Shown: positions 11,625 to 29,730 of the stretch, in pieces
Position numbering within the stretch: the stretch's first letter is position 1
How the letters are laid out: every line of letters starts with the position of its first letter
Assembly (NCBI RefSeq): GCF_007860075.1
Contig: NZ_SJPP01000001.1
Span: 4,499,490-4,563,489, forward strand
Source of the DNA: Symmachiella macrocystis
GTDB taxonomy: Bacteria; Planctomycetota; Planctomycetia; Planctomycetales; Planctomycetaceae
Length of the DNA stretch: 64,000 bases
Reading direction: 5' to 3'
Notes under the pieces: generated by a model
The model's database searches: none
Told to the model about the DNA's origin: nothing
What the model saw: only the letters and a program-made list of their open reading frames with translations
Made by a program: the position numbers and the translations under genes

Positions 11625-13454
11625 TCAATTCGTTGTCGCCACCTGCAGGTCGGCCGGGGATGGAACTGATGTTAGTATACCTGCAGGTTGTTCTTCACGA
11701 CGTCCCAAGTAACGGTCAGCTAATCGCAGACAGCGACTGCGGATGAGGTACAGAATCAACCCATAGAAAGCAAAGTTGAGCAGTACCACCACCCAACGAA
11801 ACAGATGCCCGCGGACGGTCCCGGGGAACAGTCCGCCATCCGGCCCGAATTCATTGAGTTCATTGCACAGAATTATCGTTACAGGACTGAACAAGCCGGT
11901 AAGAACATCCTTTCTGTCGGTGAACAAATCCGAGAGGGTTAAGACGATGCCCCATGGGACCACGCACCACAAAATTAACACGGCCAACGAACCCAGGATT
12001 GCCCGTGTTTGGGTTTTTGCGATCAAACCAATCCACATTGCCAACCAGCCAATCAACGGTAAGTAGATGGCAATTGATAGTAGCGATGCAACGAGATATC
12101 GCCAGGTGGAATAGTATGCCAGCAAATTACCAACACCGCCGTATGAAGCCATGTCCAAGCCCCGCCGCATCCAAGCCTCGCAGGCGAAGATCGTGATAAA
12201 ACAAACTGATAAGCCAATGACCAGCCGCCGCATGCCTTGCATTTTTTGCAAGACGATTTCCCGACCGGAAAGGGGCGTCGTGAGCAAGACGTCCAGCGTC
12301 TGCCGCGAACGCTCACTGGCAATCAAGTTGGCGGCTTGGACCGTTAGTATCAACGCCGTCAGTATCCACAACATGATGAGTAGAAATAATAACGGCGTGT
12401 CGACACGATTGGGATGGATGCCCGCGTCTAACATCAGCAGGGCAACCACCACGATCGGGATTTCAAAGAGCAGACAAATTCGCAGCACATAGCGGAACTG
12501 GCTGAGATTCTTTTTCATCGTCTCTCGCCAGGCAACCGGATTGTCGGTGGGGAGACGCGTCTGTTCATTGACCAGCACCACCCCTTTGGTTATTGGATTG
12601 TCATTGATCGTTTCAAAGATCCCGTCCAGCCCTTTAAAGATTTTACGCACCAGATGCCGCGGTTGTGCGAAGGCACGTCGAACGAGGTAGAGTCGGGCGA
12701 TTCCCAGAAACACCAACGTCGAAAGGACCAACGGCACGCTGCGCAGCGCCAACTCGCCCCAAGGATTGAGTCCGCCGCCCCAGTCAAAAATTTCGAAGTA
12801 GATGGCCGGACCGACAAGATACATCAACTTATGTTCAGGAAGGCGTGCCATACCGGCCGCCAGACCCGGAATTGCGAACAGGAAAAAGAAATAGAACAAA
12901 TTGGTCGCTAAATAGGCCCCAACTGTCGTGCGGCAGTAGGCTGAAAACATCAGACAAATGGCTGCCACCTGCACGGTGGTGAGCCCCAGCAGCCAGATCG
13001 CACCCCAGATTTGTTCCGACTGCACCCCGCCATAGGTATAGGCAAAGGCCATCAGCGGCAGCGCCAATAACATGAAGGTGAACATTGGCACCAGTCGGCC
13101 AGCCAGTTTTTCGAACAGGATCGTCCATGGCCCCAACCGTGTCAGCAAAAGTAACGCAAACGAATCCCGCTCTTTTTCTGAGGTGATCGCCGAGCAAGCC
13201 ATGGCCGGCAGAAATAGATAGATCCCGCCGAATTGGAGGGCGACGATCATCAAGAACATGTTCTCGCCCTGGCCGAGCAGAGCCAGCGGAGAGGTGTAGC
13301 GCGAGAAAACGATGTCAGAGAACATTAGAATGGCGCCGACAAACAGCAGCACCGCATACGCCACGCGAACGATGTACGTCCGCCGCCGTGCGGCCAATTC
13401 GGTCAATTCTTTGACCAATAACGGAAATCCCATTACGAATGCGGGGCGTTTCAT
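11625..13454 (-). CDS. ABC-2 type permease (module 1, first copy)
   Basis: A 609-residue ABC-2 permease clearly duplicated with the next gene. They share the FPLLVKELTELAARRRTY N-terminus, the motif AITSEKERDSFALLLLTRLGPW, and the second-half motif ASERSRQTLDVLLTTPLSGRE. About 12 hydrophobic segments are seen, with a cytoplasmic loop carrying the RRAFAQPRHLVRKIFKGLD sequence that both copies keep. It follows the ATPase at 13515-14447 by 60 nt. ABC-2 permeases usually work as dimers, so these two may form a heterodimer, but as each already has two halves a monomeric unit is also possible. Confidence 0.9.
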   Translation of the reverse strand: MKRPAFVMGFPLLVKELTELAARRRTYIVRVAYAVLLFVGAILMFSDIVFSRYTSPLALLGQGENMFLMIVALQFGGIYLFLPAMACSAITSEKERDSFALLLLTRLGPWTILFEKLAGRLVPMFTFMLLALPLMAFAYTYGGVQSEQIWGAIWLLGLTTVQVAAICLMFSAYCRTTVGAYLATNLFYFFFLFAIPGLAAGMARLPEHKLMYLVGPAIYFEIFDWGGGLNPWGELALRSVPLVLSTLVFLGIARLYLVRRAFAQPRHLVRKIFKGLDGIFETINDNPITKGVVLVNEQTRLPTDNPVAWRETMKKNLSQFRYVLRICLLFEIPIVVVALLMLDAGIHPNRVDTPLLFLLIMLWILTALILTVQAANLIASERSRQTLDVLLTTPLSGREIVLQKMQGMRRLVIGLSVCFITIFACEAWMRRGLDMASYGGVGNLLAYYSTWRYLVASLLSIAIYLPLIGWLAMWIGLIAKTQTRAILGSLAVLILWCVVPWGIVLTLSDLFTDRKDVLTGLFSPVTIILCNELNEFGPDGGLFPGTVRGHLFRWVVVLLNFAFYGLILYLIRSRCLRLADRYLGRREEQPAGILTSVPSPADLQVATTN

Positions 13455-13514
13455 GGAGCTAATATGATCGCTGTTGAGTTATGGTATTGGTCAGCGGCAG
13501 GCACTGGCGCCCTT

Positions 13515-19552: not shown

Positions 19553-20569
19553 TTAGATTTCTTCAGCAACTTGCTGTAGGGAATCGGCAATCAGTTCTGA
19601 GATCAAAATGTTCTCCGCTTGTCCGTCGTAATTGAGCAGCACGCGGTGTTGCAGCACTTCGATGGCGAAGTAGCGAATGTCCTCAAACGCCACATGCACT
19701 CGGCCTAGGCTGAGGGCGCGGACACGTGCTGCGCGAATCAGACCTTGCGCAGCCCGCGGACTGGCTCCCCAACGGATGAAGCGTTTGATGTCTTCCGAGG
19801 CGAACTCCGTATCGGGGTGTGTCGACAAAATCAGCCGCACCGCATAGTCCCGCATCGGATCAGCGACGACGACTTTGTCCAACACGCCACGCAATTCCAT
19901 GATCTGCGCCGAATCGAGCAGCTTTTGCAATTCGACCGGTCGCTTGAGAATCGTACGACTGACAACTTCGTTGATCTCGCTGCGATTGGGAAACGGCACT
20001 TCGACCTTGAACATGAACCGGTCCAATTGTGCCTCGGGCAGCGGATAGGTCCCTTCCTGCTCGATGGGGTTTTGCGTCGCCATCACGAAGAACGGTTGCT
20101 CCAAGTGATGCACCGTGCCGCCGGTGGTCACGGAGGCCTCCTGCATGGTTTCTAATAAGGCCGATTGTGTTTTGGGCGAGGCGCGGTTGATTTCGTCGGC
20201 CAGTAACAGTTGTGTGAAGATCGGGCCGGGCCGAAATTCAAACCGATACTGCCCCGTTTCGTCGCTGCTCATCATGCTGGTGCCGATGATGTCGGCCGGC
20301 ATCAGGTCGGGGGTGAATTGGATGCGGCGAAATTCCAAATCAAGCACGCGGGACATCGCCTTGACCAATTCGGTCTTTCCCAAACCGGGAACCCCTTCCA
20401 ACAGCACGTTGCCACCGGAAAATAAAGCGGTCAAAGTCGCTTCGACGACGCGCTGCTGGCCGACGATCATTTTTCCGACTTCCGCTTGCGCGGCGGCATA
20501 GTCGTCCTTGAAGCGGTCCGCTTCGTGTTGCAGCATGTCGGACGTTTCGGTAGTAACATCTTGGCTCAT
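19553..20569 (-). CDS. MoxR family AAA+ ATPase
   Basis: A 338-residue MoxR-type AAA+ ATPase, a cytoplasmic chaperone-like enzyme thought to mature or activate VWA-domain partners. Walker A is EGVPGLGKTE (58-67), Walker B LLLADEINRASPKTQSALL (121-139), sensor 1 is within FFVMATQNPIEQEGTYPLPEAQLDRF, and the C-terminal lid contains SPRAAQGLIRAARVRAL. The length is normal. It is the first gene after a 150-nt gap that contains a hairpin, so it may start its own transcript with the DUF58, VWA and ABC-2 genes downstream. Confidence 0.95.
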   Translation of the reverse strand: MSQDVTTETSDMLQHEADRFKDDYAAAQAEVGKMIVGQQRVVEATLTALFSGGNVLLEGVPGLGKTELVKAMSRVLDLEFRRIQFTPDLMPADIIGTSMMSSDETGQYRFEFRPGPIFTQLLLADEINRASPKTQSALLETMQEASVTTGGTVHHLEQPFFVMATQNPIEQEGTYPLPEAQLDRFMFKVEVPFPNRSEINEVVSRTILKRPVELQKLLDSAQIMELRGVLDKVVVADPMRDYAVRLILSTHPDTEFASEDIKRFIRWGASPRAAQGLIRAARVRALSLGRVHVAFEDIRYFAIEVLQHRVLLNYDGQAENILISELIADSLQQVAEEI

Positions 20570-20719: not shown

Positions 20720-23700
20720 TTATGTCTCTTCCTCGTCGTCCGACCGTTGACGTTTCATTCGTAATAATCGTTCGGTCGTGCTCATGTTTTCTGGCGATGT
20801 TTCTTGCTGCGGCGGTTTCGCGGCGGAGCCTGGTTTCTTGGCCGCTTGCCGCGCTGCGGTCGTGGGACGCGTTTGAGTTTGCGAACGTGGCTTGCTGGAC
20901 GTGGTCGCCCGCTGAGAATCGAGAGCGCTGCCGACGGTCCGTTTGCGTTCCAACAATGCGCCCATCAACTGGCCCGAGGCTCCGGCCTTTTTGTTCAATC
21001 CCAGTAAGCCTTTGATCACTTGCTTATCGATTTGGATACGGCGAATGGCAACATCCAAGGGAATCAAGCAGGCGAGGGCGATGAGAAACCAGAAGAAAAT
21101 CGGCAACGAACTCATCCGTGGTTTACGGCGGGTTTCGTAGATCGTTTTGACCGGATCTTTTTGGTCGGCAAGGCTTTCACCCGCGGTCTTGCGACTGAGG
21201 CTGTTCAGGACAGTCGGGTTCGAGCGAAACCGTAAGTATTCCGGTGAATAGGGAACCAGAAATCCGCCGTGCGTTTCGTCCTTGCGACCTTCGCCGACAC
21301 CGACCGCCCGGACTTGATAACGGCCCTTGGCTCGCAGTGGCATGGTGGCCTGATAACGCCGTGGGCCGACCTGCTTGAGGGACAATGATTCCTCGATTCC
21401 ATTCGGACCGGAAACCACCGCTTGCACTTCCAGAAATGTTTCATTTTCGTGGAAGTCCTCAACCTGCAGGACCCCCTGACTTCCGGAAGCGAAGCTGCGC
21501 ATCCGCAAGTTGCCCGTTTTTTCCACGCGAGAAACCCGGGTCAGCAATTGTTCGACAAACGTGCGGTACTTGTCCCAATCCATCCAATCCGCTGCCCAGT
21601 TGGGAGACAAGTCGGAGGTAAAAGCAGCTGTGGTGCCCAGACCGTACCGCCAGATCGAAAGGATCGGTTCCAGTTCATCGTCTTCGTTGGGAGCTTTGAG
21701 AATTGTCCGCACGCTGTGATCGTTTTTGGCAGTGGTGAGCACATAACCGCGCAGTTGCGGCATGGTGTCGATCCCTTTGAGCACGCCGTCGAGATCGTTT
21801 TCTAACTCGGGCGTGATCGTCTTGTTTTGGATCATGCTCCGCTTGAGCGTTTTGGATTCCTTAATAAAAATCGACGGCAATTCATTCGGGCTGGCGGGGA
21901 AGTAATACCGGCCGCCCGTCACCGCGGCAACTCGACGCATTTTGGAGATGTCCTGTCCCCCGTGTGGAAAAATCGCCACCATAGAGACGCTCACTCCGGC
22001 TGCGCGGTAGTCGTCGATCAAGGCTTTTGATGGCGGACCGGGATCGCCATCGGAGATGATGATCATATGCTTCGCCGAGGCGTCGCTGGCCTTGAGACCT
22101 TTGAGCCCCAATTGCATTGTGTTGGCAAAGCTAGGCATGTCACCGATCTGAGCGCCGTTGATCTTGCGGAGCATCATGTCGATTTCCGCAACGGGGGTCA
22201 GTTCAAAGACCCATTCCTCGCCGTTTTGTGTATAGGCCAGTACCCCCGCTTCGTCTTGCGCGCCGAGAACTTTGATCGCCTGTTTGGTAATCCGCTTGCC
22301 CCACGTGTTGCCGTCGGCGAATTCACAGGTATGCAAAATGATGGCCAGCGCCCCCATCGGCAGCACTTTCTTTTTGGTGATGTCCATCGTCACAGGCAGC
22401 GCTTCTTCGATCGCCGTGCGGTGATATCCACCGGGACCGTAGCTATTCGGCCCGCCGACCATCACAAAGCCGATGCCAAAATTGCGAGCCGCATCCTTGA
22501 CCGCCTCCATCTGAACCGTGTCGAACATGTCCGCGGCAACGTTGTTGAAGATCACACAGTCATAGGGCATCAACGACATCGCATCGCGGGGAACATCGTA
22601 GGCGGTGACGATATCGAGCGAGCGTTTTGATTCGCGAATGGCGCGAGCCAACGTTTCGGAATCGCGGGGATCGCCTTCCGGGTCATTCACCAGCAGGATT
22701 CGCCCTTCGCCTGCTAAATACAGATAATTCAGCGCCTCATTGTTCTGGCTCAGATTATCCGTATTGGTCGCGGTATCAATGCGGGCCGTGTATTCATAGT
22801 ACCCTGCCTCACGGAGATAAATCGGCACCACGTAGCGGTTTTTACCGGCTTCGAAATCAACACGCTCCTCAAAGATAGCGTTGCCGTTTTCCAGCAAGGT
22901 CAGCTTGCCGGATCCTTTTTTGAGCGACGAAAGAATCACGGCTGCCTGATAGTTCTCGCCGATTTTGACATTCTCGGGCAGTTCCAACCGCTCCAGCCAG
23001 ACTTCGTTTTCGTGGTTGTATTCGATCGGCATCACATCGATGGCGATTTCCCGCGCGGTCAATTGATCAACGACGTCCGACAGATTCCCCTCGGTTTCCG
23101 TCCCATCGCTCATCAACACAATCCGTCCTTGATGGTCTTCGGGAATCATGGCCGCGGCGAGCGAAATCGCCTCTTCGAGATTGGTCGCATCCCGATCGAT
23201 CAGCGAATTGACGGTGATGCCTTCGTTGAGCGCCAACGTTGTATGCGTCGGCAATTCAACAGCCGCGTGCCGACCAAAGACGATGATCCCCACCATGTCA
23301 TTCTTCGGCTTTTGGCTGGCGGTTTCGGCGATGAACTGAAAGGCTTCGTCGACTGTGCGATCACCGATCGAATCCGAGATGTCGACCAAATAGACAACCG
23401 CCAACCCGTCCTGACGCCGCACCGAGCGCGGTTCGGCCAACACCATCACCAGCAAACCGACCAGACAGAGCCGCGTCATGAATGCAAACATCTGCCGTCG
23501 GCGACTCAGCCCGCTCAAACCGCAGAGGTGCATCCACCAGACCCAAACAGTAATCCCCATCAGACAGAATGCGATCGGATTGGCAAACAGCAACACATTC
23601 CGCCATTCCAACACAAAGCAGACAACCGCATAGACGGCGAGAAACAGTATCAACGGCAGCGCAGCGGTCCAGGTCACCCGCTGAGGGGGTTTGGGAAAAA

Positions 23701-23728
23701 CGCTCTGGAGTATCTGTTTCCACTTCAC
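20720..23728 (-). CDS. Large membrane VWA protein with glutamine-amidotransferase-like region
   Basis: A 1002-residue membrane protein. The start is taken as GTG 23726-23728, whose last bases form the TGA of the upstream fusion gene (GTGA); an ATG at 23806 would lengthen it by 26 residues. Two or three membrane segments occupy residues 22-98. A VWA domain follows with MIDAS motif DISDS at 116-120 and LMSDGTETEG. Next comes a Rossmann-like region (YDCVIFNNVAAD..., GFVMVGGPNSYGPGGY) of amidotransferase-like shape, then a second VWA-like stretch (HMIIISDGDPGPP), a strand-rich region and a C-terminal membrane segment (about 880-905). The basic, Thr/Ser/Gln-rich cytoplasmic tail looks disordered. 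It is coupled to the iron-type ABC genes upstream and precedes moxR by 150 nt. The role is unknown. Confidence 0.88.
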   Translation of the reverse strand: MKWKQILQSVFPKPPQRVTWTAALPLILFLAVYAVVCFVLEWRNVLLFANPIAFCLMGITVWVWWMHLCGLSGLSRRRQMFAFMTRLCLVGLLVMVLAEPRSVRRQDGLAVVYLVDISDSIGDRTVDEAFQFIAETASQKPKNDMVGIIVFGRHAAVELPTHTTLALNEGITVNSLIDRDATNLEEAISLAAAMIPEDHQGRIVLMSDGTETEGNLSDVVDQLTAREIAIDVMPIEYNHENEVWLERLELPENVKIGENYQAAVILSSLKKGSGKLTLLENGNAIFEERVDFEAGKNRYVVPIYLREAGYYEYTARIDTATNTDNLSQNNEALNYLYLAGEGRILLVNDPEGDPRDSETLARAIRESKRSLDIVTAYDVPRDAMSLMPYDCVIFNNVAADMFDTVQMEAVKDAARNFGIGFVMVGGPNSYGPGGYHRTAIEEALPVTMDITKKKVLPMGALAIILHTCEFADGNTWGKRITKQAIKVLGAQDEAGVLAYTQNGEEWVFELTPVAEIDMMLRKINGAQIGDMPSFANTMQLGLKGLKASDASAKHMIIISDGDPGPPSKALIDDYRAAGVSVSMVAIFPHGGQDISKMRRVAAVTGGRYYFPASPNELPSIFIKESKTLKRSMIQNKTITPELENDLDGVLKGIDTMPQLRGYVLTTAKNDHSVRTILKAPNEDDELEPILSIWRYGLGTTAAFTSDLSPNWAADWMDWDKYRTFVEQLLTRVSRVEKTGNLRMRSFASGSQGVLQVEDFHENETFLEVQAVVSGPNGIEESLSLKQVGPRRYQATMPLRAKGRYQVRAVGVGEGRKDETHGGFLVPYSPEYLRFRSNPTVLNSLSRKTAGESLADQKDPVKTIYETRRKPRMSSLPIFFWFLIALACLIPLDVAIRRIQIDKQVIKGLLGLNKKAGASGQLMGALLERKRTVGSALDSQRATTSSKPRSQTQTRPTTAARQAAKKPGSAAKPPQQETSPENMSTTERLLRMKRQRSDDEEET

Positions 23729-25560
23729 AGTTTCAACTCCACGATGCGATGGTTTTCCGTGTCCGCCACCCGTAACCGCTGATGCGTGTCGATTGCCACG
23801 CCCCACGGTTTGAGGAATCCGTCATTATTGCGGCTCGTCTTGCCGAAGCGCCCTAACAGCTTGCCGGCCAGATTTGTTTTCGTAACCCGCCCGGCACCGT
23901 ATTCGATGATATACAAGTCTTTGGTGGCCTGATCTAAAGTGATGTCATACGGGTACTCCAGCACCAATCCCCCCGTTTTTTCCCCCAGGACCTCGACAAA
24001 CTTGCCCGTGTCGGTAAATACCTGCACCCGGTTATTGATCGCGTCGGCGATATATAAGCGGTCATCGTCCCAGACGATGCCACTGGGGCGTTGGAATTGG
24101 CCTTCACCGGTGCCGAACGTGCCGAAGGTCAGCAGATGTTTCCCGTCGGCAGTAAATTTCTGCACGCGGTGGTCGCCGCCATATTCACAGACGTAGATAT
24201 GTTCACTCTTGTCCTGGCACAGGGCGACGGGAAACAAGAACTGCCCATCCTCCTGACCTTCGCCCCCGAGATAGGAGAGCACATTGCCGATTTTATCGAA
24301 GAAAACCACACGGTGGTAATGCGTATCGGCAACGGCAATCCGCCCGTCGGTCAACAGGCAAACCCCTTCTGGCTTGCCGATGGCATGATCGGGCATTTCC
24401 CATTGTCGCAACAATTTGCCATGTTCATCAAACACCAACAGACGTCCTCCGTTGTCGAGGCAGAGCACTTCGTCGTTGTCGCCGATCGCCAAACCACGCG
24501 GACGCGGGATTCGCGCTCCCATCGGCGGCGATATCCAATGATTCACTTCGCTGACATTCAACTGCGGCCCATCGTCTTGATCGCATCCCAGCGAAACTCC
24601 ACATGCCAACAGCAACAGGCAAACATGAATCGCCACCCGAATACCGTGGCGAAGCCCATTATCCGCCGGACGATGAAAAAAAGTCCGCCGCTGTTGAGAG
24701 TCTTCGTTGAGCAACTCAACTTCTTCGAGGCTGCCCGAAAAATGTGCCGACTGCACGACCAGCGGACTTTGTTCGGCTGGGCGGATTTTGATTTGTTCCG
24801 GTCGAAAACAAGGGGATTCCCGCTGAGTCTCGATGCACCACTGCTGAGCCTCGTGCTGCGGCAACCAATTCGCCGCGCCGAGAAATTCAGCCATTTCCAG
24901 GGTTTGAGGGTCGTAATACAAGTTGTCGACCGGTCCTTGGTGCAATAATCGCCCGGACTTAAGGCACAACGCGTGCTGTGCTTCTCGCAGGACGGTTTCC
25001 GGTGAATGCGTGGCAATCACCAACGATGTGTTCGTATCACTGAGGTGGTTTCGAATGGCCCGCCAATACTTCTCCTCGCGTGCCGGATCGACGTGGACGA
25101 GAGGTTCGTCCATCACCAGGACGGCGGCCCGGCTGGCCAAAGCCCGCGCGACCGACAGCCGCGCACGCTCCCCCTGGGACATCAGATCCGGATACGCGGC
25201 GGATTTGTCTAATAAATCGAACGCCGACAACAGGTTTTTGACCCGTTCCTCCGCATCCTCAGCTCCGGCAGCCATGATTTGCAGGTGTTCAGCGGCATTT
25301 TCATGCGGCCACAACCCATCTTCCTGCGGCACCCAAAACAGCGGCAGCCGGTCACCGGGATCGTCATAGATCCGCGTCACCTGCCCTCGCTCAGGCCGTT
25401 CAAACCCGACCAGCAGGTTCAACAGCGACGTTTTCCCGGCTCCCGAATAGCCAATCACTGCCGTCACGCCCGGCGGAATCTCGCACGACACGCCGGCCAA
25501 ACGCGGGCGGTCATTGCCCGCTAACGTGATCTCGTCCAATCGCCAAAGTGGAGCACTCAT
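23725..25560 (-). CDS. ABC ATPase fused to a membrane segment and NHL beta-propeller
   Basis: A 611-residue single reading frame with two unrelated parts. Residues 1-290 are an ABC ATPase of importer type: Walker A GYSGAGKT (37-44), Q-loop VPQED, signature MSQGE (127-131), Walker B VLVMDEP (147-153), H-loop H185, and a short C-terminal extension. A hydrophobic segment (308-326) containing Cys320 and Cys326 follows, then residues 345-611 carry about six NHL repeats (for example RPRGLAIGDNDEVLCLDN, RPSGIVWDDDRLYIAD, KPWGVAIDTHQRLRVAD). With the ATPase in the cytoplasm and one crossing, the propeller would lie outside. A GTG codon at residue 309 could alternatively start a separate lipoprotein-like product, but neither Cys has a canonical lipobox. 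It is coupled at both ends (ATGA with the permease, GTGA with the VWA gene). Confidence 0.88.
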   Translation of the reverse strand: MSAPLWRLDEITLAGNDRPRLAGVSCEIPPGVTAVIGYSGAGKTSLLNLLVGFERPERGQVTRIYDDPGDRLPLFWVPQEDGLWPHENAAEHLQIMAAGAEDAEERVKNLLSAFDLLDKSAAYPDLMSQGERARLSVARALASRAAVLVMDEPLVHVDPAREEKYWRAIRNHLSDTNTSLVIATHSPETVLREAQHALCLKSGRLLHQGPVDNLYYDPQTLEMAEFLGAANWLPQHEAQQWCIETQRESPCFRPEQIKIRPAEQSPLVVQSAHFSGSLEEVELLNEDSQQRRTFFHRPADNGLRHGIRVAIHVCLLLLACGVSLGCDQDDGPQLNVSEVNHWISPPMGARIPRPRGLAIGDNDEVLCLDNGGRLLVFDEHGKLLRQWEMPDHAIGKPEGVCLLTDGRIAVADTHYHRVVFFDKIGNVLSYLGGEGQEDGQFLFPVALCQDKSEHIYVCEYGGDHRVQKFTADGKHLLTFGTFGTGEGQFQRPSGIVWDDDRLYIADAINNRVQVFTDTGKFVEVLGEKTGGLVLEYPYDITLDQATKDLYIIEYGAGRVTKTNLAGKLLGRFGKTSRNNDGFLKPWGVAIDTHQRLRVADTENHRIVELKL

Positions 25561-27026
25561 CGGCCGGTGTACCCTATTCGTCGGAATCCTCGCTCAAGCA
25601 GCGGAAATAAAAATCGACGCAGCAAGCACAGACACCCCACCAGCAACAACGGCGCCAATACCGTCACCGCCAACATGGCTGAAAGTCCGCCCGCTTGGCC
25701 ATAGTGCATAAAATTGTATATCCGCATCGGCGCCGGGTCCAATCCAGAGGGACGTAACAACGATGACAAGGTCGGATCCAAGTAGGCCCACCAACACAAA
25801 AGAACAATCGCCCAATAATGCCCTTGGTAGCGGAGTCGCCATATCAATTGCCGTGCGCGGTGCCGCTGTTGAGGCGAACCATCACGCAACAGCAACGCGG
25901 TAAGATGCACCGGTTCACCGCGCCGCACTGCTGCTAACAGAATCTGGAGCAACATGGCCCGCGGCATTAGCCACAGTACCAATGCGCTCCACCACGGCAA
26001 CGGCGTGTCATACCATCCGCCAAGCGCCGGAGTCTGAAACAGCGCCAACATCGCCAAGCCGAGCGTCAATCCGCCGAATAATCCCGGCAAGCCCACAAGG
26101 ACCGCCAACGGCAATCGCCACTGCTGCCCGCGCTGTTTCGTCGTTGCCGGTAACAAGGCCGCAGCTAGTGCATAGGTTGGCAGCGCCGCGGCAAGCATCA
26201 TCCCCAACCCGATTGCAATCTCATAAAACAGACGTGGATTCCGCCACAAGACCACCAAGCCGCTTCCCAGACCGCGACACAGAATTGCCATCGGAATCAG
26301 CCACAACAACACACAGCCAACAATCGCGAGGCCCCATGTGATGCCAGCAATTGCCGTTGATGTCCCACCACCGCTATCGCGCTGCCCGGCCGTTTTTCTG
26401 CTCATCAGCACCAACGGAATCATTGCTGCAATCAACGCGGCTTGAATTCCGGTCGGCAACAGATCATAGCGCAGTGCATCTGGCAGAGGCAGGCCTTGTG
26501 CTTGCTGGTCAAATAACCACACCGTCCAGGATGTCGCATTCACCAGCGAAACCAGTTCGAATTCCTGAAACGCCAACAAAAACATCAACACCAGCGCCGG
26601 TAGCGCGGCACGGGAGGGTCCCCGCAAATAATAACCGGCGAGTGTCCGCACGCGGGTCGATAACGGGGTGAGCGGCGGGAGAGACAGCCGTCGGCAATAG
26701 AGCGCCTGCGGCGAGATTGGGGGGCGAGGAGTGAACAGGGCAATCACCGTCCCGGCCGGAAGCACTTTGAAGAAGACTAAAACAGCGTAGAACAATTCAT
26801 TCCACACAGGGTGATGAATCAGCGACAACGAGAAATTGTAGTAGCCATAACCAACGAGCATATCGGGGGCAAAAAACGGAGCGAGCACGGCTGTCCATAA
26901 AACCAGCCGTTGCCCCCCGCGTGCTGCACGCAACTGACGGCGAATCGCGAAACAGACTGGAACCGCACAGATCGCGATCAGCAGACTCCGCAAGCAGGTC
27001 CAGCCGCAGGCCTCAGCCAGACTCAC
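25557..27026 (-). CDS. ABC transporter permease, ferric-iron (FbpB-like) type
   Basis: A 489-residue inner-membrane permease with about 12 hydrophobic segments, the size and two-half layout of FbpB/SfuB-type importers. The start is set at GTG 27024-27026, which shares bases with the TGA of the binding-protein gene (GTGA); a longer reading to 27110 adds 28 Gly/Ser-rich residues lying wholly inside the upstream gene. The first half ends near the PPLTPLSTRVRTLAGYYLRGPSRAALPALVLM stretch, typical of the cytoplasmic EAA-type loop region; the second half is at about 230-480. It overlaps the ATPase-NHL gene by ATGA. It should move the ligand delivered by the lipoprotein at 27023-28039. Confidence 0.85.
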   Translation of the reverse strand: MSLAEACGWTCLRSLLIAICAVPVCFAIRRQLRAARGGQRLVLWTAVLAPFFAPDMLVGYGYYNFSLSLIHHPVWNELFYAVLVFFKVLPAGTVIALFTPRPPISPQALYCRRLSLPPLTPLSTRVRTLAGYYLRGPSRAALPALVLMFLLAFQEFELVSLVNATSWTVWLFDQQAQGLPLPDALRYDLLPTGIQAALIAAMIPLVLMSRKTAGQRDSGGGTSTAIAGITWGLAIVGCVLLWLIPMAILCRGLGSGLVVLWRNPRLFYEIAIGLGMMLAAALPTYALAAALLPATTKQRGQQWRLPLAVLVGLPGLFGGLTLGLAMLALFQTPALGGWYDTPLPWWSALVLWLMPRAMLLQILLAAVRRGEPVHLTALLLRDGSPQQRHRARQLIWRLRYQGHYWAIVLLCWWAYLDPTLSSLLRPSGLDPAPMRIYNFMHYGQAGGLSAMLAVTVLAPLLLVGCLCLLRRFLFPLLERGFRRIGYTGR

Positions 27027-28039
27027 GGCGCGTACTCCGCTTTGAGCCAAGCCAAACATTGAGCCCGCGCTTCGGCCAGCCCGGCCAAGGGATATCCCGG
27101 CGCCGCCCACTCCTTGAGTAGTTTGACCTCAGCGGATAGTTTCGATTCGTCAACCGGTCCCAAAGGAATCTGTCGCGACTTCGAGGCAGCCATTGCTAGT
27201 TCCGTTTCTTCGGAGAGCAGAAAATCCACCAATTGCTGAGCGCGAGCCTTTTGCTGGGTTCCCTTAATGATGGCGACAGAATTGGGGATGCAAATCGTCG
27301 CTTGCTCATCAACGCGCACGGGCAACATCTCGACCGGTTTGCCCTCGTCAGCCGCCACGTAGAAATCGTCGGTGTCGGTCAGTCCCCATTGGCAGACTCC
27401 CTCGGCGACTAGGTTTTTGACTGTCGCATTGCCGGTCGCCTCGCGAATGCCGCGTTCGCGCAGGTCGGCATGCCAGGCTTGCAATTTGTCAGGTCCCCAC
27501 ACATCCCACAAGACGCTGTAGTGCGACAACGTCGTGCCGAACAGCGGCTTGGCAATTGCCGCTTGGGAGAGATCATCGGCCGCCAATGCCTGTTGCAGCG
27601 CCTCTTGTGTCGCCGGCATGGCCTCGGTGTTGATAATATAAACTCGCAGCCTTGCGGCAAAACCGGTCCACTCCCCGTCGGGATCTTTGAAAGCTGTGGG
27701 AATCCGTTCATACCCCGGACCTTGATACGGCTCGAGCACGCCCTCTTGCTTCAATTGAAGCGTACCCAGGACTTGGTTATTCCAAAACACATCGCAACGG
27801 GGCTGGTCTTTTTCGCGAATCAGTTGCTGCACCAACCCCAACGACTTTGTCGCTTCAGTGTCATAGCGGGGGATCACCTCGATGCCGGTTTGTTCGGTGA
27901 ATTTTTTGAGGACCCCATCCGCATACAGCGAATCGTGCGCGCAATATACCACCAGCGGCGGTGGTCCTGAATCCACCGCACAACCCGACAGGCTCAGGCC
28001 CACAACGACGGTTGCAGCCAGCAAACAAAAAGATCGCAT
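27023..28039 (-). CDS. Extracellular solute-binding lipoprotein, ferric-iron ABC type
   Basis: A 338-residue substrate-binding lipoprotein. The signal peptide MRSFCLLAATVVVGLSLSGC ends in lipobox LSGC with Cys20. The mature part opens with LVVYCAHDSLYADGVLKKFTEQTGIEV, the typical start of the FbpA/AfuA-like periplasmic binding family, and continues with CDVFWNNQ, FAARLRVYIIN and LLSEETELAMA. The start ATG 28039 has AAGGACCAGG upstream. It lies 8 nt after the coiled-coil gene and is coupled to the permease by GTGA. Iron is the usual ligand of this family, but relatives bind other anions or thiamine, so specificity is inferred. Confidence 0.9.
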   Translation of the reverse strand: MRSFCLLAATVVVGLSLSGCAVDSGPPPLVVYCAHDSLYADGVLKKFTEQTGIEVIPRYDTEATKSLGLVQQLIREKDQPRCDVFWNNQVLGTLQLKQEGVLEPYQGPGYERIPTAFKDPDGEWTGFAARLRVYIINTEAMPATQEALQQALAADDLSQAAIAKPLFGTTLSHYSVLWDVWGPDKLQAWHADLRERGIREATGNATVKNLVAEGVCQWGLTDTDDFYVAADEGKPVEMLPVRVDEQATICIPNSVAIIKGTQQKARAQQLVDFLLSEETELAMAASKSRQIPLGPVDESKLSAEVKLLKEWAAPGYPLAGLAEARAQCLAWLKAEYAP

Positions 28040-28047
28040 CCTGGTCC

Positions 28048-29652
28048 TTACTGTTCGTCCTCGTTGCCATCTAACGTGTCGAAGTAGCTTTTGATGCCCT
28101 CTAAATACCCGGGAGGAACTTGTTCCTTGACGATCGCTTCGCTGACTCCCTGTTTGACTTTGCGAATGGATTCGCGGTATTCCTGTTTGGCGTCGCCACG
28201 GTCGCTCAGCCCTTTGTCCTTGAGGGTCAGCAACACTTTACCGGGACGGATTTCCGCTTTGGATTTTTCGTTGACGAATTTCGACTTTAACTCATCATTC
28301 TCATCGACCTCGCCTCCCTTGCCAAATCCTTCGCCGCCGGTCCCTTCTCCTTCTCCCTGGCCCATTTGGGCCATCAATTGTTCGTAATACTCTTGATAGT
28401 CCTCCAGTGATTCGAGATCTTCCATCCCCTCGCCGTCGAGTTCTCCTTGGACGTTCAGTTTTTTCGCCGCCTGAATCGCCGCCAGCGCTTTTTCCAATTC
28501 CTGCAGGTCTTTGGCGGACTGCGCGACTTCCTTCAATTCCATTTTGACCAGTGCCATCGACTCGGTGAGTGCCTCCAAAGCCTCGGTTGACAAGCCATCG
28601 CGTTTCGATGCATCCAATTCTTTCAGCGCCCGCTTGACGGCGGCAGCGAGTGGCTTGGAGTCGAGTTTGTTCGATGCCAACTCTTCTAGGTCACGAAGCC
28701 GTTGCTTAATTTTTTCCCGCAACTCCGCTTTTTTCACCGGGTCGGTCGTCTTGGCCAGTTTTTGCAATTCCGATTTGATCGCGTCGATCTCTTTTTGCAA
28801 GCTTTCGGTGGAGCCTTCTTGTAGTTCTCGGCTCCATTTCATCATTTTGGCCTTGCTCATGCCGCCGAATTGTTGATTCGAATTCGACGACTTGCTGAAC
28901 AATTCCTTGAGCTTTTCGTTGTTGAGTTTCCGCCATTTCTCGCCGAGAAATTTTTGCTGCTGGCCCAGCATTTTCGAGTTGCTTTGCCGCTCACCGCGTT
29001 TGGTTTTTTTGAAATCGTTTTTTAATTTCTCAACCGCCTTGGCGACCTCGTCGGACTCCTCGCTCATCCCATCGCTTTTCTTCTTCAGTTGCGCAGTCCG
29101 CAGTTTCGTGGCTTTACGCCCTTTTTCCAGATCTTGCTCGCGTTTTTCCTCGGCCTGCGCCATTTGCACGTCGCCAAACGGATCGAACTGCGGGAAGGCA
29201 CGTGTCGCGACGAACAACACAACCAGCGCCAACACCACATGGGCCAGACGTCGATGCCAATGAAAGGGGACGACCACGTCGGGTTTGATTTTCGTTGCCC
29301 GCTGTTCGGCGTCGCGCGTGACGAGCGGCCCATAGTCGCCCGGAGACTGTGCTAATAACGACGCCGTTAAATAGAGATCTTTAGTGTCGGTTGTTTGATC
29401 GACCAGCCGTGCTAATTCCGGATCCGTCGGACGTCGCAGCGATAAGCAGCCCCACAAGATGGCTCCGGCGGGAATCACCAATAGCGTGAGCGGCTCGAAA
29501 CGATCGGGAATTTTGCCTGACAGACGACTGAACAACAAGACAGCCGCGTAAAGACCGGCCAGCACAAGAAACGACCGATAGAAACTGCGTCCAAACAACG
29601 CAGCCCGCCGTCGGTATCCCACCCGCTTGAGCATTTTTGCTGTTTCAGTCAT
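28048..29652 (-). CDS. DUF4175-like membrane protein with long coiled coil
   Basis: A 534-residue protein, start ATG 29650-29652 chosen for the AAGGAA eight bases upstream. Two membrane segments near the N-terminus (about 27-43 and 54-70) are followed by a conserved-looking stretch (LRRPTDPELARLVDQTTDTKDLYLTASLL) and a third hydrophobic segment (about 135-152). Residues 165-420 are highly charged heptad-like helices, then a Gly/Glu-rich hinge (GQGEGEGTGGEGFGKGG) and a compact C-terminal region. This resembles DUF4175 proteins and other partners found with MoxR/VWA clusters; that assignment is tentative. It lies 78 nt after the EF-hand gene and 8 nt before the binding lipoprotein. Confidence 0.8.
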   Translation of the reverse strand: MTETAKMLKRVGYRRRAALFGRSFYRSFLVLAGLYAAVLLFSRLSGKIPDRFEPLTLLVIPAGAILWGCLSLRRPTDPELARLVDQTTDTKDLYLTASLLAQSPGDYGPLVTRDAEQRATKIKPDVVVPFHWHRRLAHVVLALVVLFVATRAFPQFDPFGDVQMAQAEEKREQDLEKGRKATKLRTAQLKKKSDGMSEESDEVAKAVEKLKNDFKKTKRGERQSNSKMLGQQQKFLGEKWRKLNNEKLKELFSKSSNSNQQFGGMSKAKMMKWSRELQEGSTESLQKEIDAIKSELQKLAKTTDPVKKAELREKIKQRLRDLEELASNKLDSKPLAAAVKRALKELDASKRDGLSTEALEALTESMALVKMELKEVAQSAKDLQELEKALAAIQAAKKLNVQGELDGEGMEDLESLEDYQEYYEQLMAQMGQGEGEGTGGEGFGKGGEVDENDELKSKFVNEKSKAEIRPGKVLLTLKDKGLSDRGDAKQEYRESIRKVKQGVSEAIVKEQVPPGYLEGIKSYFDTLDGNEDEQ

Positions 29653-29730
29653 GTCTTGATTCCTTTTAACCACTTCACAAACGCGAGATTGATTCGCTGC
29701 TTCGCATTATGCATGATACTCGCCGATTTG

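Follow-up and report, generated by a model that had tools for sequence, protein, structure and literature searches.

Signal peptides are usually regarded as N-terminal, and the production of two proteins by such mid-gene cleavage is, to our knowledge, rare in bacteria. The fbcH gene of Bradyrhizobium japonicum provides an example, with cytochromes b and c1 translated together as a precursor that is then divided at an internal signal sequence; the site is of the signal peptidase I type, and the products are respiratory proteins. The locus described here resembles fbcH in that two proteins would arise from one precursor parted at an internal signal, cleavage being predicted in the present case, but it differs by its lipobox/LspA site and by the partner, which is an importer ATPase or permease. 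A search of the open-access literature found no paper on bacterial polyproteins cut by signal peptidases or on internal lipoboxes.

PknD of Mycobacterium tuberculosis offers a second comparison, since it pairs a cytoplasmic nucleotide-using domain, a single hydrophobic segment and an external six-bladed NHL propeller, as does the protein studied here; it is a receptor in which the kinase domain and the extracellular NHL sensor belong to one chain (PMC3140968), whereas the lipobox found here predicts cleavage. In the MoxR-vWA-beta-propeller ternary systems, the propeller is fused C-terminal to the vWA, and the P-loop of MoxR often reads GXXXTAKS (PMC7159879).

In the window, that is, the whole stretch of 64,000 nucleotides of Symmachiella macrocystis DNA that was analysed, a single open reading frame on the minus strand runs from the ATG at 25560 to the stop codon at 23725 (23725..25560, 611 codons for 611 residues, no internal stop) and combines an ABC ATPase, a TOBE domain, a predicted internal lipoprotein signal and an NHL beta-propeller. 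The initial annotation had described one uninterrupted frame joining an ATPase to NHL repeats, which is confirmed in the window and in 73 species belonging to 25 genera, with 41–96% identity among the orthologs aligned. As the same uninterrupted frame occurs in 73 species, the fusion is no sequencing accident, and the stop codon or frameshift artefact near 24640, considered at the outset, is ruled out by these orthologs. Pfam searches of the 611-residue protein detected ABC_tran at residues 23-154 (2.6e-21) and NHL (5.4e-29). The structure prediction initially proposed was run with AlphaFold2 on an alignment of 40 orthologs and recovered the ATPase with its TOBE domain and the propeller, both with high confidence (mean pLDDT 90.9); residues 316-329 form the sole stretch with a pLDDT below 50, and the propeller begins near residue 338. 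The full-length model has a pTM of 0.52, a value that is uninformative on how the ATPase and propeller halves relate.

The N-terminal part (residues 1-313, 24622..25560, minus strand) is an importer ATPase of the FbpC/CysA/PotA type, as indicated by ABC_tran, Foldseek, profile and TOBE_2 matches. Walker A (G37-T44), the signature (M127-E131, MSQGE), Walker B with the catalytic Glu (147-153) and the switch His (H185) lie where they had been placed and are near-invariant in the 73 orthologs; K43, S128, G130, D151 and E152 are invariant across all aligned fused and split sequences, and H185 is found in all but one. The complete motif set reported earlier therefore stands, but the TOBE domain had been overlooked. 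In the AlphaFold2 model, the ATPase part closes with this TOBE-type beta domain, the last strand of which corresponds to residues 308-313 (RVAIHV). The top Foldseek match of the N-terminal half is FbpC (9j4r_B, E 5.6e-24), and the profile alignment pairs residues 4-313 with residues 5-332 of this 340-residue chain, so that the ATPase part is complete; Foldseek and HMM alignments to FbpC and CysA extend to residue 313-314, and homology stops where free FbpC stops. TOBE_2 was found in 9 of 40 members, and none of the best 25 NCBIfam models listed reached its equivalog cut-off (e.g., PhnT, 98.6 of 499 bits). The protein thus resembles the FbpC/PotA/CysA ATPases (9j4r_B FbpC, 1z47 CysA, 8zx1 PotA) in fold, motifs, TOBE domain and the adjoining genes for an FbpA-like binding protein and a permease. 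It differs from them by the lipoprotein signal and propeller placed after the TOBE domain, and the differences listed also include the signature (LSxGE) and the Q-loop Gln, often lost in the fusion family.

With regard to the Q-loop, the window protein keeps its Gln (Q79, 25324-25326), whereas Pro, His, Ala or Ser replaces it in 66 of the 73 fused ATPases (Gln in 7/73); it is retained in 30 of 39 split ones. Striking as these raw counts are, independent changes (2–4 pairs) are too scarce to link the loss to the fusion, and the effect is inseparable from descent. In five split relatives (L029, L111, L115, L129 and L131), ATPase homology ends around residue 210-235, a pattern expected if the split were followed by loss or divergence of the TOBE domain.

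The C-terminal half is a six-bladed NHL beta-propeller (residues 327-611, 23728..24582, minus strand), as established by its Pfam NHL repeats and its fold; the best Foldseek match is the NHL domain of Thin (6xg7, 9.7e-24), and the NHL propeller of TRIM71 is also matched in the structural search. Together with C326, it would constitute the mature lipoprotein. That it docks or senses something next to the binding protein and the VWA and MoxR proteins is a guess.

A search of planctomycete genomes for the same fusion, suggested in the initial annotation, covered 170 genomes of the family, 128 of which gave a strong match. Sorted by frame, the loci comprised 73 fused, 40 called split and 21 with NHL alone, 13 of the latter coming from other families; two of the 40 "split" loci are damaged fusions, with a TAA within the ATPase part (L023) or a frameshift within the NHL part (L093). 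About 40 relatives thus carry the ATPase and the NHL lipoprotein as separate genes, and genus g28 holds both states. Lineages in which the propeller is a gene of its own with a clear start, seen initially as an argument against a genuine fusion, do exist, but the fusion is conserved in others, and both states are therefore real. The NHL tree implies about 7 state changes, of which at least 3 are forced by supported branches, and the ATPase tree 4. Since fused sequences are found at several early branches in the family, the trees, which contain many short branches, suggest an early fusion followed by repeated splitting. Genome records assign these relatives to Planctomycetota. A few metagenome-assembled genomes with the fused frame (L147, L148, L152) have titles that read Verrucomicrobia or Prosthecobacter and are maybe mislabelled; in L148 and L152, titled Verrucomicrobia, the ATPase-NHL fusion has no VWA gene nearby.

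The two halves meet at a putative internal signal peptide (residues 304-326, 24583..24651, minus strand), which overlaps the end of the TOBE domain: the last strand, RVAIHV, is followed by CLLLLACGVSLG and then by C326, the lipobox ending in G325-C326 (SLG-C). The hydrophobic segment of the initial annotation is hence present, but the lipobox that ends it had been missed. If, as predicted, the TOBE domain ends with residues 308-313 as its last strand, no more than 12 hydrophobic residues are left before C326, which would not suffice for a stable anchor. The lipobox Cys is conserved in all 73 clean single-frame orthologs, preceded by Gly (71) or Ser (2), and K/R is followed by 12–18 uncharged residues (median 13) before the lipobox. 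Free NHL proteins, from split relatives and from other families, have a like signal (median 15), with Gly-Cys in 57 of the 58 examined. The window holds three other internal lipobox-like sites, and such sites arise by chance, so that an internal lipobox seen in one sequence is weak evidence unless it is conserved. The neighbouring VWA gene served as a control: of 10 relatives, 3 retain its lipobox-like Cys. It is conservation, rather than the presence of a lipobox, that carries the argument for a lipoprotein signal. In the minus-strand frame 11628-13478, an internal lipobox-like site is found at Cys 433 of 617.

Judged from these features, the "membrane segment" appears to be a signal of the lipoprotein (signal peptidase II) type lying within the chain, and no ordinary anchor. 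It has the positive n-region, short uncharged core and [GS]-Cys lipobox of bacterial signal peptidase II lipoproteins, and the free NHL orthologs look like ordinary lipoproteins of this form; it differs by its location at residues 304-326 of 611, where another protein of about 300 residues precedes it, and not at the N-terminus. Both lspA (6.6e-27) and lgt (1.2e-58) are present in this genome. The initial annotation had proposed a lasting chain in which a cytoplasmic ATPase, one membrane crossing and an external NHL sensor would form a single transmembrane protein; such a layout would be PknD-like. The placement of the ATPase in the cytoplasm and of the propeller outside is supported, as are the fusion and its conservation; the frame is continuous, an N-in/C-out topology is compatible with it, short hydrophobic segments sometimes serve as anchors, and PknD itself pairs a kinase domain with an extracellular six-bladed NHL sensor (PMC3140968). 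However, a plain anchor would need no Cys, and here an invariant one ends the segment in 73/73 orthologs; the segment is shaped like the signal peptide of a lipoprotein, its 12-18 residues being partly taken by the predicted last TOBE strand; and the lipoprotein is free in about 40 split relatives from several lineages, while the permease fusions considered below carry the same lipobox. A permanent one-chain sensor is thus a weaker reading than a cleaved polyprotein, and we consider it unlikely.

The initial annotation had further raised the idea of two products from one frame through GTG309 (24634..24636, minus strand). Were the lipoprotein translated from a start of its own, one would expect conserved start codons together with a conserved ribosome site. 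Expected start-codon counts were obtained by synonymous resampling from each gene's own codon use, and four intervals were tried. ATG, GTG or TTG at -30..-14 from the Cys occurs in 54 of the 73 orthologs versus 50.7±3.4 expected, hence without enrichment, and a weak excess appears in one of the four intervals (-20..-13, 50 vs 42.6, p 0.017 uncorrected); 14/73 have none of these codons at -30..-13, and ATG is found in 13/73. A Shine-Dalgarno-like sequence is absent at GTG309 and at most candidate starts in the 19 orthologs examined closely. Change at fourfold-degenerate sites is 0.43 at the junction versus 0.42 and 0.41 elsewhere (27 independent pairs), revealing no synonymous constraint. As start codons, Shine-Dalgarno sequences and fourfold sites at the junction are not conserved, GTG309 is most likely just a valine codon, although it might serve as a start in this genus. 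Internal initiation, by which the ATPase or full-length protein would start at ATG1 and the NHL lipoprotein at GTG309 or a similar codon, might draw on the window's own genus, all three species of which have GTG or ATG at -17/-16 (GTG309 in the window species and a near relative, ATG310 in the third), on the plausible look of signals starting at those codons, and on the weak excess mentioned above. Nevertheless, three of the four intervals are unenriched and the start position shifts among species, which, with the missing codons and ribosome sites, renders a conserved mechanism of this kind unsupported and the explanation improbable.

Members of another class, the Phycisphaerae, present a different arrangement. 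In 14 loci (L158, L159, L161, L165, L197, L228-L235 and L238), the permease is in frame with the NHL lipoprotein, within the gene order binding protein – permease – NHL – VWA – MoxR; an apparent 1672-residue permease–NHL–VWA frame in L197 was ignored, as it spans a run of unknown bases. K/R, 12–20 uncharged residues and an internal lipobox Cys are found in 14/14, and AlphaFold2 models a multi-helix permease, a low-confidence stretch (516-542) and a propeller. In L160, the permease and NHL genes are separate and nearly abutting. This is a second, independent fusion, and the existence of ATPase-NHL and permease-NHL proteins means that the same lipoprotein has been joined to two different importer subunits. 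Such a recurrence speaks against a neutral accident, that is, against the ATPase having lost its stop codon without functional significance, with the products handled as before. The several switches on the NHL tree (about 7, of which 3 are forced by supported branches) would accord with an accident, but the fusion is held in 25 genera and 73 species with no stop codon or frameshift, down to about 41% identity, and we judge this explanation very improbable.

We therefore regard as probable that the gene makes a polyprotein, which Lgt and LspA would lipidate and cut, giving an ATPase in the cytoplasm and a lipoprotein outside it. From sequence, we infer the following course. The ribosome would translate the entire frame; the N-terminal ATPase and TOBE domain would remain in the cytoplasm and serve the adjacent FbpB/FbpA-like importer, while the signal peptide right after the TOBE domain would direct the propeller through Sec. 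Lgt would then put a lipid on C326, and LspA would cleave between G325 and C326, yielding an ATPase with a short tail and an NHL lipoprotein anchored in the membrane, either on the outward side of the inner membrane or farther out. After cleavage, the tail could go back to the TOBE domain and complete its last strand. The gain would be the co-production of importer and lipoprotein in a fixed ratio. Tentatively, and with more doubt than confidence, we can propose for LspA the role of a maturation protease, with a cellular polyprotein as its substrate and with cutting coupled to ATPase folding: residues 308-313 would double as signal-peptide start and last TOBE strand, the ATPase would finish folding and join the importer only after the lipoprotein had been exported and cut off, and the double capture of the lipoprotein, by ATPase and by permease, would tie importer assembly to its export. 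Of note, four free NHL orthologs (L037, L137, L144 and L241) have lipoprotein signals of the twin-arginine (Tat-like) kind, such as RRQFL and SRRRFLGG, so that the export route, Tat or Sec, may differ between lineages.

A lipoprotein signal is thus conserved mid-gene in a large environmental family, behind a cytoplasmic ATPase, and in another class behind a multi-helix permease. If cleavage occurs as predicted, LspA would turn one precursor into two working proteins, such proteins would be misread by annotation pipelines as membrane-anchored ATPases, and signal-peptide predictors restricted to the N-terminus would overlook a class of lipoproteins. The split relatives, including a fused/split pair within one genus, make the prediction directly testable.

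The neighbouring genes complete the picture of the locus. The importer permease (517 residues, 25557..27110, minus strand), the stop codon of which overlaps the ATPase ATG, is syntenic with the fusion in most relatives and has no PDB sequence match. It is accompanied by a substrate-binding lipoprotein of the ferric-ion-binding (FbpA) family (27023..28039, minus strand, lipobox SLSGC); Fe3+-binding proteins make up nearly all of its PDB matches, with 4r72 the best (E 6.8e-11), and, given this family, an iron-type substrate is the best guess for the importer. The expected Tyr-Tyr iron-ligand pair of this protein reads DDFY, one Tyr apparently being replaced, and the substrate may accordingly be other than free ferric iron. 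On the other side, a VWA and GATase1-like protein (20720..23806, minus strand) is encoded immediately after the NHL gene, on its downstream side, in most members of the family as well as in other planctomycete families, and is next after it in nearly all family loci reaching that far; in other families of the class (L132–L144), the VWA gene also follows the NHL gene, and no ABC genes were found beside NHL. A MoxR AAA+ ATPase (19553..20569, minus strand) belongs to the same cluster. MoxR, vWA and propeller are thus encoded together as in the ternary systems; however, the propeller is here a separate lipoprotein, the search of the VWA protein revealed no propeller domain, and the P-loop of MoxR reads GVPGLGKT, which rules out membership by the criteria of PMC7159879. 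Finally, a 541-residue protein (28048-29673) with no Pfam match has a counterpart, with 20% identity (E 4e-7), that in Phycisphaerae likewise lies upstream of the binding-protein gene, and appears to be an old member of the cluster.
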